The notes below the pieces were generated by a model that saw only the letters and a program-made list of their open reading frames with translations, was not told the origin of the DNA and searched no databases. This document shows, piece after piece, positions 6,702-17,035 of a DNA stretch of 64,000 nucleotides (position 1 is its first letter; every line of letters starts with the position of its first letter). A program made the position numbers and the translations under genes. The DNA is from Diplosphaera chodatii (taxonomy: Eukaryota; Chlorophyta; Trebouxiophyceae; Prasiolales; Stichococcaceae), in contig JAALGY010000014.1 of assembly GCA_032358165.1 (NCBI GenBank), positions 620,001-684,000 of the forward strand. The letters are read 5' to 3'.

Positions 6702-7170
6702 ACAGTCGGCTCGGACGTCGAATCAGCCTTCTGGTCGTCAGGGTTGCGTGCAACCGGTGCACGTGATGGTTTGATTTCTCAGAAGCATGCGAGCCGTTGA
6801 GGAGCATGCGACATTCTTACACCTTGCAAGCTGGGTGCTGCAAGCATTGATGCCGGTGTGCGGTGAGGTGATACAGAAGTGACAGCACAGCAGGGCAGAT
6901 TTGATCTACGCCATGGCTCTCTCAAGAAGCAGACTCCTATACCACAAGCAGCACTCTGCTTCTATCATCATCCACAGCATCTAGCACCACTCTGTACATC
7001 TATGCAATGCATCTATCAGTACCACCACACAGCTGAGTTTCATCCGATTGTCCAGAAAAAACCGCATACTCTTGACAAAGCTCCTGACCGATGCTGCTGC
7101 CCACTGGCTAGAGCCGCCCTGACACTCACTGCTGGATATGGACTTTCACGATACATGTTGGCCGTACCGG
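6702..7170. other. Convergent 3' spacer
   Basis: 469 bases between the stop of the LEA-like gene (+) and the stop of the Dug-type fusion gene (-). It should contain both 3' UTRs. No gene is visible. Confidence 0.5.
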
Positions 7171-10100
7171 TCATGATGAGACAACCTGGTGTAGGAGGCT
7201 ATCGCTGAGCAGATGTTTGATGACATTCTTTCCGGCCAGGAGGTTGTCACGCGAAATGCGTTCATTTGCCAGATGGCATGCATCCGACGCCTGTGCAGCA
7301 CACACAGGATGACATTTGCAGCCTGTACCAGCAGGTACGAAGCAGTCTGGAGCACTGTGAAGACAGTGCCCCAGACACCTGAGCAGATGCAGGGGCGGAT
7401 GTGCCCTGGTGCCGGAACCGCAGCGTCTGCCAAACACGCACAAGCCACCGGCACACTCACGTCACAGCCTGGCAGCATTGCTTGCTGGAATTGACGCCTA
7501 GGCCACGCCTGGCCAGAGTGGACAAACCTCACCTGACCGAAGGGGATGAGCAGTGCATGGGCCCCCAGCTCCTGTTCCAGGGCACTAGCCACCTACGGGA
7601 AAGCAATGCCGAGTCGAAATCATGTGTACATCAATTGTTGCAGTGACAGCAGCCTGCAACCGAAGCTAGTTTTATCGCAGTCTCAGGCCCCTCAGCAAGA
7701 CGGCCAACGACCAGCCAGAGAACTACAAGTGCTGATGTATGATGCCTTGGAATGGCGCAATCCACAGGCGACATGTGCACACCGTGAGGCCTTGAGGCGT
7801 CGTCATGTGCCAGCCCTTGTGCATTTCACACCGATGCAGAAACGCACCTTCGCCATAGCATCTGCAAAGGTGTGCACGTGCTGCATCATCGCAACCCGTG
7901 AAACGGCTGCCCACTCACCGGCATGGTGCCGCCCTCGCGCACGTACAGCGGGGGCCGCCCCCACTGCGCCTCCACCGCCCGCTCCGCCAGGCTGAACAGC
8001 CGCGACGCGGGGTCCGCCTCGTACCAGTCGCCCACGCTGCGCAGCCGCACCGCCACCCGGTTGGCCGAGCGCAGCTTCCGGAACTCGTGCTGCACGTGCG
8101 CCCTGCGGCCCGAGAATATATATATATATATCATATATTAATATACACACCAAAATCGTGCTGGATGTCCTGCAAGGCGGTGGTTAGGTAGAACAATGTG
8201 CCCTGCTGAGGGGTGTCGCACACGGGTGTGGACCTGTTTGACAGCAGCATCTTTTGTGTACGCAACTGTTGTGTGCAGCGTCGAGCACAACAGCTCTCGG
8301 GACGCCCCCGCGCAGGGCCGGAGGTGCTGTACAGCACCGACCAGATGGAGGCCTCATATGAGCAGGCGGCTCGCCTGAACAGCTCGAACAGGCGGCTGGC
8401 GTCCTGGTCGGGCACGAAGCGGATGGAGACGTGGCCGGTGGCGGAGCGGGGGACCACGCTGAAGCGCGTCGGCCCGAAGCGGTAGCCCTCGGCGTCGTCG
8501 GCGTCGCCCGCCGCGGTGTCGTCCCCCACCCGCACGTCCACCACGCTCAGGCTGGGCTCGCACCACCGCGCGCTCAGCAGGTCCCTGAACAGGATGAGGG
8601 CGAAGCTGGCTCATGGTCTGTGCCCTCATGCCCATCCTGTGCGCATGCTGCTTTGCTGTGCGCGGCTGCGGGCGCTGGCTCGAGTCTGAGGCAGGCATGC
8701 AGTTGTGGCGTCGGCACGGCATACAGATACGGTGCAGCGGCATCTGCCGACTGTGTCTTCAATGTCTTCTGGTGCATGCCAGGCCAGATGCGGGTGTCCA
8801 GGCACAGCGCCGCACCGCTGGCTGGTGTTGGAGACGAAGGAGGGCACGCCCAGCGAATCCTGGTACGCCGGCAGCTGGAACTCGTCGCTGGCCTCCAGCC
8901 GGCTGACCGCCGCATCCAGCATCCCCTCCCGCACGCCATCGTAGAACCCCGGCACCTGCAGGTGCACGTGTTGTGACTCCTTGCTGCGCCCGTGGTATTC
9001 TGCACGATCCCTGCTGGCAACTCCTGCGCATGTGCACAGCAGACCCAGACATCGGCTCATTCCAGGATGCGTCTTGGGGCGGCATTGACGGGTGCGGCGC
9101 ACCTGGATGTTGTTGCGGGAGTCGATGAGGGACGCGAGCACCTTGGTCAGGTCGGCCAGCGGCTCGTTGAACACGCCGCCGTCGTTGCCGCTGTGCAGGT
9201 CCCGCTGTGGCCCCGCCACCTGGACGCGGGAAACCGCGGAGACAGTAAGGTTACCCCGTGTCGCGGGGTCGACCCTGGACTTAGACTTCGACGTCGTGAC
9301 AAGCAACCAAGTCAAATCAGCATGGTGTACACAGACGGCACATACTGCTGCGTGTCCACATGTGTGGCGCCTGAAGGTGGACGAGCATCGGCAGCGGCCC
9401 ACCTCGATGGACAGGCTGATCATGCCGCGCATGCCGTAGGTGAGGCAGGGCACGCGCTCGCCCACCCACAGCGTGTTGGAGATGACCACCAGCGACACGC
9501 CCTCGAACCAGCGCTTGTTGCTCCGCAGCACCTGCAGGTGTGCCGGCACAGGCGTCGATGCACGACCGCCGCCATGTCCGACTTGCAGACTGGCATCAAG
9601 CGTGCCACCCCATAGACAGGCTTCCTTACGGGCTTCCAGAATGAAGCCCCATAATGAGACTTTAACGACTTCAGTACCCGTACTGCACGATAACGCAGCA
9701 CTTTAGCACCTCCCGGAAACCTGCCGACCCATTCTCCTCCTCGCCCTCCACCACGAACACGACGTTGCAGGGCAGGCTGCCGGCGGGGCCCGCCACCCCG
9801 GGCCGCCCCTCCCCCAGCAGCTCCTTCACCGCGTACACAAACGCCAGGATGGGGCCCTGCAATGTGACACACGAGTGGCGTGTTTTACGAGGTCAGTATG
9901 AGGGATGTTTGTGCGGCCGCATGGTCGGGTAAGCAACAGTACGAGGGTAGTGTGCAGCAGAGCTGTGACATGAAAGGACTGCAACTGGAGTGATTGCAGA
10001 TGCAACACTGCTTTGAAAGCCCCAGTCCAGATGCAGCCTCAAAAGCCGGTTTGAGGTCAACAAACAGCAGGCGTTCACCTTGTTGTCGGAGGCGCCCCGG

Positions 10101-10908
10101 GCGTAGAAGTAGCCGTCGATGCTGTGCAGCTGGAAGGGGTCAGTCTTCCAGTCCCGCTCCATCGCCGGCTGCACATCGTAGTGCCCTGCCAGGACCACAG
10201 GGCAACAGGCCTGAAGGTAGCTCTCTGTCTCATACACAGAGCAAGCCAAAGCATCGCCTGCATGCCTGTCCGGTAGGGGCACACCCCAGCGGCTGCCAAA
10301 TCAGCTCTGCCGTACCGTAGAAGCAGACGGTGGGCTTGGCGGGGTCGCGGCCGAGGCGGCCGAGCACCACCGGGTTGCGGTCCTCCTGCCCGTGCGCCAT
10401 CTTGATCTCCGCGCCTGCTCCCGCAACAGCAGCATCTCGATGAACTCCTCATTGAGATGCGCCTAAGCAGGTGCTCGGATAGCACGTGACCGTGCATGCA
10501 TGTACCTAGACAGCGTTTCTGTTCCAGATGTGTCCAGGTTGTCCGTGGGATGCCAGCACGGCGCTGTGATGAACCCAGGTTTGACAGCTGCATGGCTAAG
10601 CATGAGCTTCCATACTACAGTGCCGATAGTGTGTTGAGTCTTGTGCCAAACCCTGAGGCCTACAGATCACGGTCACCAAACTTGCCATGTACTGTGATCA
10701 GTATGGTCAAGCGGATGTCGCGCACCCAGCGACTCGAGCAGGGTGCCCAGGAACTTGGCGCCCCGGAAGCAGTCCTCCCGGTGCCCCGGGTCCCGCGACA
10801 CCGTGGCCAGCCGCACAAAGTCCCGCAGCGCCCGCTCCAGCTCACCGCCGATGCGGTCCGGCAGGGCGCCGCCGCCGTCGTCCAGCACCTTCTGCCGCTT
10901 GGCGCCGC
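7171..10908 (-). other. M20-family peptidase (Dug2-like) domain of the fusion
   Basis: Metallopeptidase fold read from exons near 10908-10735, 10420-10320, 10190-10080, 9856-9720, 9538-9403, 9220-9103, 8960-8820, 8595-8395, 8110-7922, 7592-7520 and 7290-7171. Metal-site and catalytic motifs: HYDVQPA (first His and catalytic Asp), RGASDNK (bridging Asp), EGEEENGS (Glu-Glu), LHSGNDGG, and the last His in QASDACHLANER. One usual ligand position reads ISNTLWVG, with Asn where catalytic M20A dipeptidases such as Dug1 or carnosinase have Asp. CLTYGMRGMI and VPGFYDGV fit Dug2 closely. Confidence 0.88.
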
Positions 10909-13900
10909 CTGCAGGCGTGCGAAGGATTGGGTTCAGCAGGCTGGCTCCGTGGCACGGAAGGGGGCGGCGTGAAACAGCGCGGAATAATACAGCCAAGCAT
11001 GCTGCCCAGAACTCCTAGTGTTAGCATCCTCCTGTGTCAGATGCATCCTTCAACTACCTGATTGATGCTGAGAAGGAAACCCATGTCAGCTGCGCATGCC
11101 CTGAGCTGATGGGTGTCAAGATTGGCAAGCCATGCTGGGCCGCTCCTACTTTCAGCTACCTGCTGCATCGAGCACGCCACCCCGATGATTTGATGCCCCG
11201 AGCACTGTGCACAGGCACAGGCACCGCACCCTGCACGACTGCAGCCGAGTCGACGTCCGGCGCCTCCTCGCTGGAGGCGCTGCTGGCGGGCGGCCGTGTG
11301 CGCGCCCGCTGAAAGGGCTCGGCGCTGGCCCACAGCCGGATGACGCCGTCCGACGACCCCGTGATGGTGTACCTGCACACAAGCATAGCTAACGTTTCAT
11401 CAGGCTAAGCACTGGGTCTTTGGTGCAACACAGTGTGCACACCCTTCGGGTCTGCAGCACAGTAGCATATCACCAGCAGATACGTACCTGGAAGTGCAGT
11501 GGTAAATATCGTGCACAAATAGCAGCAGTGGGTGGTGCCATCATGTAAGCGCACTTCTCGGTCATGGCTGCCGACAGGAAAGGGCAGGGCGGCGCGGTTG
11601 GGTCCGCCGCGGAACAGGCGAATACCCGGATGCATGTCCAGCAGCGTGAGCGCCACAGCCGGACGCAGCCATCGGCACTGCAGCAGCACGGGCATTTGGG
11701 CCTCTGGCATAATGAGGGACCCAAGTCATTAAGATGCAAGTAATGTGTCTGCTGGATGCCCTGCGCTGCTGTCGCAACGCAGAAGGAGCTATGCATGCAG
11801 GTTCTTGCATGTGCTCAGTCACCCACAACATCAGGGAACCCCATGTGGGCAGCCAGCGTGCTGTAGGCAGACAGGCACCTGGCGGTGGCGAACAGCACGC
11901 CGAGACCCGGCTCGGGCGGGGGGCTGGGCTCGCGTTCGCCAATTGCGCTGGGTGGCTCGGCCGATGGGTCGCTCAGCCGCAGCCCCGTGATGTGCAGCAC
12001 GTCGTCCTTGTGCCCTGTCAGCGTGCGCCGGCACACCAACGCCTCCATGTCCCACACCCTAGGACAGAATGCTTGTGTTTCCAGTAGGTCCACAATCCAG
12101 ACGGCCACAGCGGCTGACCGTACATGTTCCACAACAATGCCTTGCTGCACCCCAAGTATGTCAGAGGCTGCAGACGTCTCGTGTGACAGAGTACATCCGG
12201 TTTTGCTCGACAAAGTGCTTTGATGATATTGACCTGACGGTGTTGTCACGGCCGCCGCTCAGCAGCAGGTTGTCCATCGCAAACATCGTCAGGATGGCGC
12301 CGCGATGGCCCCGCAGCACGCTGCAGGGACAGTTACTGTCGATTCATGAGTCCTGATGGCAGCTGTTGCAGGCATGACGTCTGCTTGGAAGCTCCAGCGC
12401 AGGGGCCGCCGCATGACACCCGCCAACCTGACGGGCTCCAGGGTCCGGGCCCTCCACACACGGATGGCTGCATCGCCGCCGCCAGAGCACACATACCCGG
12501 TGCAGCGCGCGATCGCGTTGACGCTGCAGCAGTGGCCGTGCGCGGCGTCCGCGACTGCGATGGGGGTCGTCACCATGGGCAGCCCCTGCACCTCAGCAGT
12601 AGGCTTCATGATGTAATGACGGTTGCTTGATATCGTAATGACGGTTGCATACGGCACTATGGGAAGCATTCGGAAGCGACAGTGAGCTGGGACACCCCAC
12701 CTCGAAGCTGAGCGCGTCGAGCTGTGACCCCGGCGCAGGCTGCGTGTGCGCGCTGCGGCTGGCGCACTTTGCGAGCAGGGGCTTCAGGGGCGGCAGCTTC
12801 CAGTGCCCGTCGCGCATCTTGGTGCCAATCACAGCCGCTTCCGCCGCCGTGCCGTCGGCCACGGCCGCAGGCGGCACAGCGCCAGAGGAGGTTGCGTAGA
12901 TGTCCAGGGTGCTGCTGCTGCCGTTCCCCACCTCGCTGGCCCACAGTGTCTCGACACCGCCGCCTGATCCGGATCAGCAGGACAGGTCACTCGCAGCAGG
13001 CATGCGGCAGGCAGCAGTGTTGCTGCTTGCTGGCTTGGCTGCCTTGCATTGGCTGTCTCGCATTGGTCTTTCCCACAGCAAGTGATGCAACCATGAGCAC
13101 CTGGCAGCGTGTCTTCGTCAATCGTGGCGAGCTTGGCTGCTGGTGCACCAGAGGCCGCCGCACCAGAGGGCGCATCCATGATGAGCGGCAGCTTGAACGC
13201 CTGCAGGCCCGTATCCTTCAGTCCCACATACACCGTCTCCTGCAGCCATCACATGAGCACAGTTTCACTTAAGATCACGCGCCGGACAGTGATCAACACT
13301 GTGCACTGCTGCCGGACTGCTGCAGCACTCCCTTGGCGCCTTGGCACGGATGTGTGATGCTGACATGGACACGCGAGGGGGTCTGCGGCGGGAATCCTGC
13401 CGAAGTGCCTACCCGCGGGCCGACACACAGGGAGCAGATCCGACCGCGCTCCCGCGATAGCTCCACCGAGGCCACCGGAGTCAGGCACGGCAATGTCCAG
13501 GCAAACACCCGCCGGCCCTGCATAGAGCATGGCCAGCTTCCAACCGTCAACTGACTCCATCACTTTCCGGCCCGATCCCCTGTGTCAGGAACTCGGCTGC
13601 AACCCTCATACGAAGGCAGCTGCAGGTGATTGCTGAGGCTCATTAGCATAGTGCACAAGTTGAGGCAGCATGGCGAGATGCCGGGGCACAGTGCTGCACA
13701 CGTACCGCAGCAGCGTACAGCCGACCGGCGGCCAGCTCCAGGTGCGCGACGGGCTTGGCGGCCCGCAGCAGTGTGCCCACGCACTTGCACGTCTTCAGGT
13801 CCCACACCTACAATGGACACCCAAGCTCACGAGTCTGCCACATACCTGTGCAGCCTCGTGGATCAAACCTACTGTGACGAGGGTGGTGCAGGTCAGCTGT

Positions 13901-16900
13901 CGGGGTATCTGCTGCTGCTTCTCAGGTGTCCCCAAGCTGCAGTTTACAATGTCTGTAATGCATCTGCATGAAATGCGCTCTACCTTGAGGGTGCCGTCCA
14001 CAGATCCAGAGAACAGCAGGTGGCCACAGAAGACGCGTGCACACAGCACGCTGCCGGCATGACCCGTCAGTCGGTGCTCCTCTGACGTTACCGCCTCTGG
14101 CACCGCTGCATTGTCACTTGCCATCGCACCTGCTTGCATACGGCATCATTCAAGCAAACGCCTTGCAACACATCTCCGCGCTCGACTGCAGCAGATGGAA
14201 TACATGCGCAATCGCACAAGCATCTTCAGGCGAGGTTCACCATTCGACTGTGCTGTGTCAAAGCTGACATGGCGCCGCCTGCGCTTGCGGGGACTGACTG
14301 GCTGTACATCACCACCGCCGTCGCCGCCGTGGCCATTGACCACTGGCAACGTGTCCAGTGACTCAGACGGCATGGCGGCCATCATGGCAGCTGAACTGAG
14401 AGGCGGCAGCGAAGGGCTGTGGCCGTGCTGCTGTCCAAGTGGCAGTGGCGCACCGGTCCAGGGGCGGGCCGAAACATGCACCGACTGGCTGATTGCCTCC
14501 AGGCACCTGTAGTGGAACGTGCGAGGCTATCTGGCGTGGCGTGGACAGGCCAGGTGCAGCTCTTTTAACCCCGATGCTGCAGTCGGTCTGTATGCTCCAT
14601 GTGCTGTTGGTGCAGCCAGACAATTTGGCAGCGAGGTGTGGCAGGGTAGCACCCTGGCGCACGCCATGCCACTGCTTCTGCCACGGGGAGGCACCAGCGC
14701 CATGCAAGAAGCGGCAGCAGATCAACGTACAGCAATACCACAGGGCTGTCACAGTGATGACTCACTGCTGGACTTCCAGCTGCCGGGGGTGCACCCCTCC
14801 GGCTGCCAGTGGCGCCTGCACCACATCCAGCAGCCCGGCCTTGCCGCGGCTGACCACCAGCGCCGTGTTGCGGGGCACCGCCACCTGCGCCAGGGACACG
14901 AGTGCTAGTACACTGTTGCCGCACACACATGTTGTGCTAGATTTGCAGTATTTGCAGGTGAAGGAGGTGTCGCCTGCTATGCTCACACAGCCTACCCAGT
15001 GCCCAGCTGAACCGGTGATGGGCTCGCTGGCGACAAGCACCACCCGACTGCCCCGCTCCCCATATGTGAGCGTGTACTCTGCCTCGTCTGCAGCAGGCAA
15101 AGGCACATCACGAGAAGGCGGCGGCATCATGCCCGGCGCCTGCCGGTGCATGTTGGTGAGTTGAATCAATCCTGAAGAGCATCAGAATCTGCCAAGGTTG
15201 AAGCACCTGCGACGCTGGTTTCTCTTGCTGCGGTGGGTGTGGCTGCCATGCTGGCGCTGTGCTCAGCGGCCTGCGTGCCGCCATTGGTGGCCGCAACATC
15301 TGAGACTCTCCGGAATGCAGCTCCTGTGGGCGAGAAACAAAAAGTGTGCACCGCCGCCACAGACTGATCGTTCATGACGACTACCCGTGCGTGCAATCCT
15401 CTGGCAACCCTTGACTCACTGCCACCCTACTGCACTGCAGCAAACCTCACATCCTGTGCAGCCGATGCTGTGCATCTTTCAGCGAAACAACTGCTTCTTG
15501 CTGAAGATGTGCTATGTACGTTGGTGTCGTCAAGGGGTCGCACCTTCAGCAAAGTACATGGTGGCGGCGGCACATTCATCGCGGTCAACATAGCGGGTGG
15601 CAACCAAACTCTGACCATCTGACACCACAAAATTCAGCAGCGACACCCCTGACGTCTCGCCAGCCTCCTGCTGCACTCTGGTGATGTCCGCCACCGTTGC
15701 CTGTCAGGCGAGCATCGCCTTGTGTCAGAAACGTCCAAAGACGAGGTGCTCACATATGCATCATGACATCATGAATGCAAGCATCAGAGCCAATGCATGC
15801 CATGCGATGCAATGCGGTGATGGAATATAATGGCTGCGGCTGCGGCCCGAAGCGTTTGGGGCCTGATGCGTACCTCTATTGCAGCCAGCAGCTGTGCAGG
15901 CTGCAGCCGCGACTGCAGGTCTGGCAGATTGTTGAGGAAGAGTGCGAATGCGAGTGCTGAGTCCGAGTGGAAGGACTGCACCGTGTTGAACACCTGAGCA
16001 CATACAATGAGCGTGGTCGCCTCTGCTTGGATCTTGTAATGAATTCAGAATCATGTGGCCGTTTGTGCCTTGGATGGTTTGCAGGGTTACGTCTATGCAG
16101 AATGCGCCTCCCACCTGCTCGCTGAGGGTGGCAAGCAGAGTGCGCCGGATGCGCATGAAGTTGGCGATCACCCCATTGTGCATGAACAGGTACATCCCCC
16201 ACTGCAGGGGCAACAGAGAAAGCACATTTTCTCATGCAAAAGCGCAGACCTCACGGTCTTATGCAAAAGCGCAGAAGCTTACACACAAGGAGTTTGTGGA
16301 CCAGTCTGGGCTTGAGCAAGCGACAAACAGAGGGTCTGAAGCCTGACTTGAAAGGGGTGGCAGTTCTGCTCCGACACAGGCATGCCCGGGTAGGCAGCCC
16401 GCACATGTGCAAACACCAGCGGCGAGGTGATCTTGCATGACAGCCGGCCCAGGTTCTCGTTGTTCCTGCACAACGGTGCGCAGTTGGCTCATTGCTTTGC
16501 GCCCGCTCGTGACTTCTCTCAGGCAACAAAGCCAAAGGCGATATTTGAGTAGTCAGCATGACAAGGCAGGCAGCCTGGGGGATCAAGCTCACCAGGCTGG
16601 GGTGATGGAGGTGAAAGTGCAGGGGGTGGGGTCATTACGCGGTGTCGCACCCTCCGGACTGAACCATCCGATGCCAAAGCCATCGCCTGTGGGAAGCATG
16701 CTCATCATGCTGCTGCTGCTGCGCGGTCAGGCGATGCACACAGCGTACACGGCCGGCAGGAGTTGCCCACCATTCAGGTTGCCGTGGGCGAGGTGTTGCG
16801 GCAGGGATGAGTCCATGATCCGTTCCCGCGCATCATACGACTGCAAGTCGACAAACACGCCGTGTTCACGATGCCGCTCAAACGCTGCCAAGTCAACAGC

Positions 16901-17035
16901 CGCAGCAAAGGTCATCAGCGGACCACATGGGCGGTGAGCTCATGTGTGCACCTGTTTGATGATGGAGCGGTCCGGCCACAGCACCACATCCGCCACCAGG
17001 GCCGGCGGCCCAATGTAGGCCATCAGCCGGCACAT
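7171..17035 (-). CDS. DUG3-DUG2: Fused Dug3-like glutamine amidotransferase / WD40 / Dug2-like M20 peptidase
   Basis: In yeast, Dug2 (WD40 plus M20 peptidase fold) and Dug3 (class II glutamine amidotransferase) form a complex that removes the gamma-glutamyl group of glutathione in the cytosol. Here all three modules read in one order on one strand: amidotransferase 17035-14241, WD40 propeller 14129-11230, M20 domain 10908-7171, roughly 1,500 residues over more than 25 exons. The start at 17035 is fixed by MCRLMAYIG, which puts the catalytic Cys at position 2. The amidotransferase/WD40 junction joins exon end 14241 (phase 1) to exon start 14129, giving SNGAMASDN with the frame kept. The WD40/M20 junction joins 11230 to 10908, giving VVQGGAKRQK. 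If the 14241 donor is not used, the first half stops at 14146, seven bases from the ATG at 14139, leaving no room for a separate promoter. The stop is at 7171-7173 after KHLLSDSLLHQVVSS. Two overlapping genes remain the alternative. Confidence 0.87.
8113..8141. repeat. (AT)n microsatellite in an intron
   Basis: A short run of alternating A and T followed by further AT-rich bases, in the intron between two M20-domain exons of the fusion gene. It stands out in otherwise GC-rich DNA. Confidence 0.8.
11230..14129 (-). other. WD40 propeller of the fusion protein
   Basis: At least six blades are readable across exons near 14129-13984, 13809-13708, 13530-13414, 13240-13107, 12967-12701, 12590-12425, 12310-12240, 12058-11885, 11676-11570 and 11372-11230. 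Signature pieces are LTGHAGSVLCARVFCGH with SGSVDGTLKVWDL, SGGGDAAIRVWRA, LRGHRGAILTMFAMDN with SGGRDNTVRVWDM, LTGHKDDVLHITGL, SADGCVRLWR and YTITGSSDGVIRLW. A long insert rich in Ala/Gly/Ser (exon 12967-12701) interrupts the propeller. In yeast Dug2 a WD40 region likewise precedes the M20 domain, so order and content agree. Confidence 0.88.
14241..17035 (-). other. Class II glutamine amidotransferase (Dug3-like) domain of the fusion
   Basis: Ntn-hydrolase domain. Visible active-site elements: Cys2 in MCRLMAYIG (exon 17035-16952), GDGFGIGWFSPEG (exon starting about 16691), VFAHVRAAYPG followed by QNCHPF (about 16460-16350), the oxyanion-hole Asn-Gly in LFMHNGVIANF (about 16205-16150), and SDSALAFALFLNNL (about 15985-15900), corresponding to the conserved Asp in this family. 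The linked order SYDARERIMD ... LNGDGFG, with VASEPITG near 15020, follows Dug3 rather than GlmS, PurF or asparagine synthetase. The domain ends near 14760, followed by a linker of about 90 residues (exon 14512-14241) that is Ser/Pro/Gly-rich and carries a basic PRKRRRRHVSFD patch, possibly a nuclear localisation signal or simply disordered. Confidence 0.88.

Follow-up and report, generated by a model that had tools for sequence, protein, structure and literature searches.

A Dug3-WD40-Dug2 gene fusion in Diplosphaera chodatii and its counterparts across algae and protists

A stretch of 64,000 nucleotides of the green alga Diplosphaera chodatii (assembly GCA_032358165.1, contig JAALGY010000014.1, positions 620,001 to 684,000), referred to below as the window, carries counterparts of the yeast proteins Dug3 and Dug2 next to each other on the minus strand, and raises the question whether these are two genes or one. 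Yeast Dug2p and Dug3p form a complex which, according to a passage in PMC13398684, cleaves glutathione to glutamate and Cys-Gly, and passages in two further papers confine the Dug2/Dug3 route to fungi (PMC7340319, PMC9012958). For the window, a single gene coding for a single protein in the order Dug3-WD40-Dug2 was supported by the sequence analysis. Judged from its homologues, this fused arrangement is old and overlooked, not an oddity of D. chodatii.

Gene structure and the Dug3/Dug2 junction

The fused gene (7171..17035) was modelled on the minus strand as 31 exons in one open frame from ATG 17035 to TGA 7171, with a coding sequence of 4161 nt for 1386 amino acids plus stop and introns totalling 5704 bases. 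All introns are GT-AG except for the donor of exon 28, modelled as GC at 8374..8375, with a GT 6 nt upstream that is also in frame. Based on the gene model and Pfam, exons 1-10 (14766..17035) encode a Dug3-like class II glutamine amidotransferase (GATase) and exons 12-20 (11230..14129) a WD40 propeller. Exon 11 (14241..14506) starts with a conserved CLEA, followed by a variable linker, as seen from relatives and a second copy of the gene, and exons 21-31 (7171..10908) encode a Dug2-like M20 peptidase-like module with a dimerisation domain, assigned by Pfam and residue comparison. On the protein, Pfam placed GATase_4 at residues 48-227 and Peptidase_M20 at 980-1376, besides WD40 and M20_dimer. 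A preliminary description of this locus had reported three modules in order on one strand with splice junctions 14241/14129 and 11230/10908; the order was found as described (17035 to 7171, a single open frame), and both junctions are present and in phase.

Between the Dug3-like and Dug2-like parts lies intron 11 (14130..14240, 111 nt, ends not unique), whose length is a multiple of three and which holds one in-frame stop (TGA 14148-14146) and an ATG (14139-14137). The same description had argued that separate genes, with a stop at 14146 and ATGs at 14139 or 14124, would leave no room for a promoter or poly(A) signal. Stop and ATGs are indeed located there, but a further in-frame TGA in intron 10 (14762..14764), overlapping the GTGAGT donor of exon 10, had been overlooked. 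A Dug3-like frame that ignores this donor meets TGA 14764-14762, which would leave more than 600 bases, and it is homology, not spacing, that settles the point. The sequence EVQQ/CLEA across the exon 10/11 join is matched by an EVxxCLEA-like sequence in 10/10 relatives aligned, so that TGA 14762 reads as intronic. A Dug3 ending at this TGA was rejected on these grounds.

The remainder of exon 11 is poorly conserved, with 20/89 identical residues compared to P0001 and 10/89 compared to Coccomyxa, and species comparison alone therefore cannot fix the donor at 14241. At the exon 11/12 junction, the window offers 44 frame-keeping GT-AG pairs (introns of at least 40 nt) and the second copy 35, some pairs other than 14241/14129 also falling at matching places in both. 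Pair 14241/14129 is preferred because the linker then stays coding and looks constrained as protein. A lack of reads with this splice had been named as one result that would refute the fusion; since the pair is not unique, its absence from reads would not refute a fused gene.

The second copy was found in the same genome assembly (85.6 Mb, 55 contigs), on contig C32, the window gene being on C12. An amidotransferase query on the genome matched only these two contigs (20 matches). Guided by the window gene model, all 31 exons could be placed on C32 in the same phase with usable splice sites, including exons 11 to 12. The copy encodes 1383 amino acids without internal stop, and 1305 of 1382 aligned residues are identical to the window protein (94%). 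Exons are 85-99% identical between the copies and introns 45-84%. The GC donor of exon 28 was modelled in both, each with the in-frame GT 6 nt upstream, and the exon 26 donor is GC in the C32 copy and GT in the window (C32 positions 522418 and 521611 for exons 28 and 26).

Ratios of nonsynonymous to synonymous substitution (dN/dS, Nei-Gojobori) between the copies were 0.061 for the GATase, 0.162 for WD40, 0.043 for M20 and 0.117 overall, and 0.241 for the linker (codons 370-441), the last value being drawn from 14.5 synonymous and 11.5 nonsynonymous differences with no significance test. The linker also differs in length by a 12-nt in-frame indel. Because dN/dS is low there and the indel keeps the frame, the linker of exon 11 is most likely translated. 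That adjacent open reading frames were joined by chance was rejected, as the second copy fits the same exons in phase and dN/dS is low.

Spread and history of the fused form

The single-gene fusion proposed in the preliminary description is borne out by the 31-exon frame, by the second copy and by the module order in relatives. A protein search with the window protein found 171 homologues, of which 120 were listed. The search scored the 7993 candidates sharing most words and favours fused proteins, since candidates were 0.55 to 1.75 times the query length and three modules outscore two. With profiles, the order GATase-WD40-M20 was found in 118 of the 120 listed homologues, some of them with only part of a module (117 in a first phmmer pass); the remaining two are short proteins with GATase and WD40 only. 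Proteins combining a class II amidotransferase with an M20 domain, for which a proteome search had been suggested, are thus present in number, and the fusion is no peculiarity of this alga. With the M20 part of P0062 as query 709 matches were obtained, 120 of which were listed and 48 of these were new. The new ones contained a GATase stretch of more than 150 amino acids in seven cases, a remnant in one and none in 40.

Among the matches listed, the fused form occurs in green, red and streptophyte algae, an amoebozoan, Eimeria and transcriptomes that we take for choanoflagellates. Named sources include Coccomyxa, Trebouxia, Chlorella, Auxenochlorella, Prototheca and Picochlorum. Bryopsis, Volvox, Chlamydomonas, Raphidocelis, Pedinophyceae, Chloropicon, Cymbomonas, Closterium and Chara are also represented, as are Cyanidium, Gracilaria, Planoprotostelium and Eimeria, and, through the M20 query, Thecamonas and Porphyridium. 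EukProt prefixes were read by us as Creolimax, Corallochytrium, Mesostigma, Chlorokybus, Spirogloea, Cyanophora and choanoflagellates. Neither land plants nor animals were seen by name among the matches listed from both protein searches, which is no proof of absence. The homologue of Eimeria brunetti, an apicomplexan parasite (P0120), is fused and sits on a long branch.

P0001 is 63% identical to the window protein over 99% of the query and P0002 61%. Their contigs contain 1000 and 998 non-coding bases, compared to 5704 intron bases in the window gene, and are too short for such introns and therefore cDNA-like. An annotation artefact was rejected as the source of the fusion on account of these contigs and of homologues from assembled transcripts. 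The fused homologues are already in databases under the generic name ‘Glutamine amidotransferase type-2 domain-containing protein’. These unnamed algal and protist proteins share the module order of the window protein and differ from it mainly in linker and insert lengths; in trees the window protein groups with the green algal ones.

Free-standing Dug2-like proteins (WD40-M20) were found among the matches listed in fungi and oomycetes and in one genome that we take for a glaucophyte, and free-standing Dug3-like proteins in Zoopagomycota. A sequence was labelled split when it had no GATase stretch of more than 150 amino acids, and some of these are probably truncated; a Chondrus sequence so labelled carries a GATase remnant, and a GATase piece from Nannochloropsis is named WD repeat protein.

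Trees were built on subsets of 289 sequences: a quick tree of M20 (71 family members and three outgroups), a quick tree of the GATase (74 sequences) and a careful tree of both modules joined (42 sequences and three outgroups). In the joined tree 29 fused sequences form one clade (99/99), and fungi fall outside the main fused clade in all three trees. At the base, in an order without support, stand the fused Thecamonas and Planoprotostelium and the split Aphanomyces, while the other ten split sequences group weakly (80/77). Approximately unbiased tests gave p = 0.037 for all fused sequences as one clade and p = 0.105 for all split sequences as one clade, values that are suggestive only, the groups having been chosen after the trees were seen.

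In the GATase tree, fused sequences and three Zoopagomycota proteins make up a set of 59 apart from bacterial GATases (97 in the Shimodaira-Hasegawa-like approximate likelihood ratio test), with the reservation that, of the 12 outgroup sequences labelled bacterial, only five carry bacterial names and the labels of the others were guessed, and that the outgroup does not fall on one side of a single branch. The bacterial proteins, some annotated EgtC, root the eukaryotic set; they are lone proteins of about 285-313 amino acids, and five bacterial-named matches are 42-46% identical to the P0062 query over the whole GATase domain. In the M20 and joined trees the Dug2-like sequences are separated from three dipeptidases (DUG1/CNDP) with a support of 100.

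These data lean to an early fusion with later splits. An N-terminal nucleophile (Ntn) amidotransferase needs a Cys at its mature N terminus. The GATase must thus come first in any fusion, which makes the constant order a weak argument for a single origin. A wider proposal, to which we give somewhat less than an even chance, is that the one-chain enzyme was the early eukaryotic DUG form and predates the main groups, that the fungal, oomycete and glaucophyte forms were split later, that the M20 half has been largely a pseudo-enzyme scaffold throughout, and that ‘fungus-specific’ would apply to the split form only. Two supposed holozoans differ: in P0144, which we read as Corallochytrium, Dug2 is split and falls with the fungal sequences (98 in the M20 tree), and P0063, presumably Creolimax, has a fused gene. 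Transfer, loss or long-branch attraction are candidate explanations.

Active sites and proposed function

The GATase site of the window protein reads MCRL, HVRAA, MHNG and HSDSA, so that Met1 and the nucleophile Cys2, Arg, Asn-Gly and Asp, in the roles we presume for them, are all kept. Over 125 fused sequences, window included, Asn, Gly and Asp are present in 125/125, Arg in 116 with nine gaps, and Cys2 in 77 with 48 gaps, which may come from truncated or wrongly chosen starts.

The M20 site is altered. Where dipeptidases have a ligand Asp (ISDNYW), the window protein has Asn (ISNTLW). In counts that depend on the alignment, this place holds Asn in 110, Ser in six and Asp in two of 118 fused sequences, window included; it is Asn in 41/41 sequences without GATase and Asp in the 3/3 dipeptidase chains compared. 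At the other M20 ligand positions checked, the residue is conserved in 113 to 118 of the 118. Ligand and general-base roles are those in carnosinase structures. The Ser is found in four streptophyte and two red algal sequences, some under names that we take to be correct. Because the ligand Asp is Asn in most sequences, the chemistry sits most likely in the amidotransferase, and ‘peptidase’, the activity named for this module in the preliminary description, is probably a misnomer.

The M20 module is most similar in sequence to CNDP1, CNDP2 and DUG1. For a model of the Elliptochloris homologue (mean predicted local distance difference test 83.6, predicted template modelling score 0.73), the best PDB match was Dug1p 4g1p, presumably through the M20 part. 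The module shares the fold and most active-site residues with the M20A dipeptidases DUG1/CNDP2, but does not have the complete set of M20A metal ligands, Asp being replaced by Asn, and it is attached to WD40 and GATase.

With yeast Dug2p-Dug3p (S. cerevisiae) the window protein shares a class II GATase with Cys2, as in Dug3, and WD40 and M20, as in Dug2. The Dug2 and Dug3 sequences compared were those of other fungi. The GATase part has the Met-Cys N terminus and the Ntn-site residues of Dug3 and clusters with fungal Dug3, away from bacterial GATases, and the remainder has WD40 followed by M20 with dimerisation domain and groups with fungal Dug2 apart from DUG1/CNDP. The yeast system consists of two chains and is fungal, Dug3 being free-standing and partnered with Dug2, while the algal form is one fused chain outside fungi, in a genome where no DUG1 orthologue was detected. 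A (Dug2-Dug3)2 assembly is predicted only, from the M20_dimer domain.

The one gene quite probably encodes one polypeptide that would do the work of the yeast Dug2-Dug3 complex within a single chain. Once Met1 is removed, Cys2 would attack the gamma-glutamyl amide of glutathione, and probably also of other gamma-glutamyl peptides; Cys-Gly would be released and the glutamyl-enzyme resolved by water to glutamate. The M20 module would pair two chains and help to hold the substrate, and is probably not a working dinuclear peptidase, while the WD40 propeller may act as a scaffold. Because of the fusion, a 1:1 stoichiometry of the modules is predicted. Hydrolysis of the released Cys-Gly would fall to another peptidase, perhaps an M17 leucyl aminopeptidase, which is proposed because no DUG1 orthologue was found. 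The sequence side of this proposal consists of the fused frame, its conservation, an intact amidotransferase site and an altered M20 site; substrate, dimer and product flow we infer.

Several points weigh against this proposal. The gene model was read from genomic DNA alone, and an ATG at the place of 14139 is also present in the second copy. Glutathione as substrate is carried over from yeast, and the GATases found with a Dug3-like query are partly annotated EgtC, so that another gamma-glutamyl amide is possible. At the general-base position of M20, Glu is present in 67 of the 118 fused sequences, the window included (Gly in 39, others in 12), and P0057 and P0109 from Closterium, the only two of the 118 with a ligand Asp, have it three residues before Trp as in dipeptidases; given this Glu and this Asp, M20 activity may still be possible.

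The shared ATG, together with an intron 11 divisible by three with a single in-frame stop, would suit two genes or one bicistronic mRNA, in which the Dug3 frame ends at 14146, Dug2 starts at 14139 and the polypeptides meet afterwards. Polycistronic transcripts are called prevalent in green algae in a passage of PMC11291117, with leaky scanning as the favoured mechanism for bicistronic loci. Here, however, scanning would have to pass 36 ATGs (any frame, exons 1-11, start included). Reading through exon 11 adds 30 codons before the TGA in the window and only 12 before a different stop in C32, so the Dug3-side stop is not conserved as would be expected of two reading frames each with conserved start and stop; where the window has Met at 14124, C32 has Lys. 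All three modules are in one frame in 118 of the 120 listed homologues, and the second copy's linker exon, which seems to be under constraint as protein (dN/dS 0.24 from small numbers and with no significance test), argues against two genes and a bicistronic mRNA alike. Neither TGTAA, which we take as the algal poly(A) signal, nor AATAAA occurs between 14762 and 13984, and a TGTAA lies at 6821, beyond the stop of the fused gene; two further TGTAA, at 16283 and 13948, are inside introns. Separate polypeptides are therefore very improbable, and the bicistronic reading was rejected on the stop and ATG comparison between copies, the linker constraint and the ATG count.

The EgtC annotations, and a passage reporting that yeast Dug2p-Dug3p takes part in gamma-Glu-Met degradation (PMC7617739), would agree with an amidotransferase or amidohydrolase that acts on a gamma-glutamyl substrate other than glutathione, such as a gamma-glutamyl peptide or an EgtC-like ergothioneine-type intermediate. 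This is unlikely, as the architecture fits Dug3 plus Dug2 and the bacterial GATases retrieved stand alone, the flanks of 9/9 loci (up to 4000 bases, several shorter) giving no match to M20 or WD40. That M20 is an active Cys-Gly dipeptidase and the chain performs both steps would fit its fold, its ligands mostly as in DUG1/CNDP2, the Glu of the window, the Closterium Asp and a genome in which no DUG1 orthologue was found. The loss of the ligand Asp from nearly all fused and all split sequences makes this quite unlikely, and so does Gly at the general-base position, in seven of the 41 sequences without GATase (Glu in 34) besides the fused ones. A fused glutathione-cleaving amidotransferase with a largely non-catalytic M20 half is preferred.

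Glutathione degradation in this genome and in the literature

The preliminary description pointed to a route of glutathione breakdown independent of the gamma-glutamyl pathway. A Dug2/Dug3-type enzyme is encoded, but degradation is not confined to it: GGT, ChaC, 5-oxoprolinase-type (Hydantoinase_B) and M17 aminopeptidase families were all matched in the genome, and by these matches the fused enzyme is one of several routes. A search of the genome with yeast DUG1 matched only the two fused genes (4 matches) and no DUG1 orthologue, in six-frame exon searches. Genes can escape such searches, as happened with GATase_4: that family search did not match the window gene and yielded two weak loci, on C46 and C51. 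Other M20 loci, on C19 and C25, are distinct from the DUG1 matches and presumably of carboxypeptidase-S type, judging from their reading frames.

The fused form across algae and protists contradicts the fungal restriction of Dug2/Dug3. In the passages available, a plant review names only the cyclotransferase and GGT routes (PMC8464934), and a Euglena paper assigns just one transcript contig to the ‘GSH degradosome proteins’ (PMC6351624), which hints at a possible unrecognised fusion, although the paper does not say so. No prior account of the fusion was found in the titles, abstract starts and passages searched; full texts and most subscription journals were outside this scope, and an earlier description is possible. 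Within the literature searched, most subscription journals again excepted, none was found on Dug3 with glutathione in Chlamydomonas. What is surprising is not a new fusion in one alga but a one-chain version, conserved and overlooked, of a system that has been described as fungal. Such a form, here duplicated and selectively constrained, implies an additional intracellular route for recycling glutathione sulphur and nitrogen across much of the eukaryotic tree, and offers a one-polypeptide target for the structure and enzymology of a complex that needs two proteins in yeast. It also speaks against peptidase activity in the M20 half of Dug2, a point directly testable in yeast.

Several unrelated genes were also found on paired contigs (C12/C32, C7/C18, C46/C49, C10/C37 and C21/C35). 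Together with a dS of about 0.26 between the two Dug copies, this suggests a genome with two diverged gene sets, from an old duplication or a hybrid. A 5-oxoprolinase-type (Hydantoinase_B) gene lies about 47 kb from the fused gene on C12 (576017-580365) and about 39 kb from it on C32 (562668-566901).

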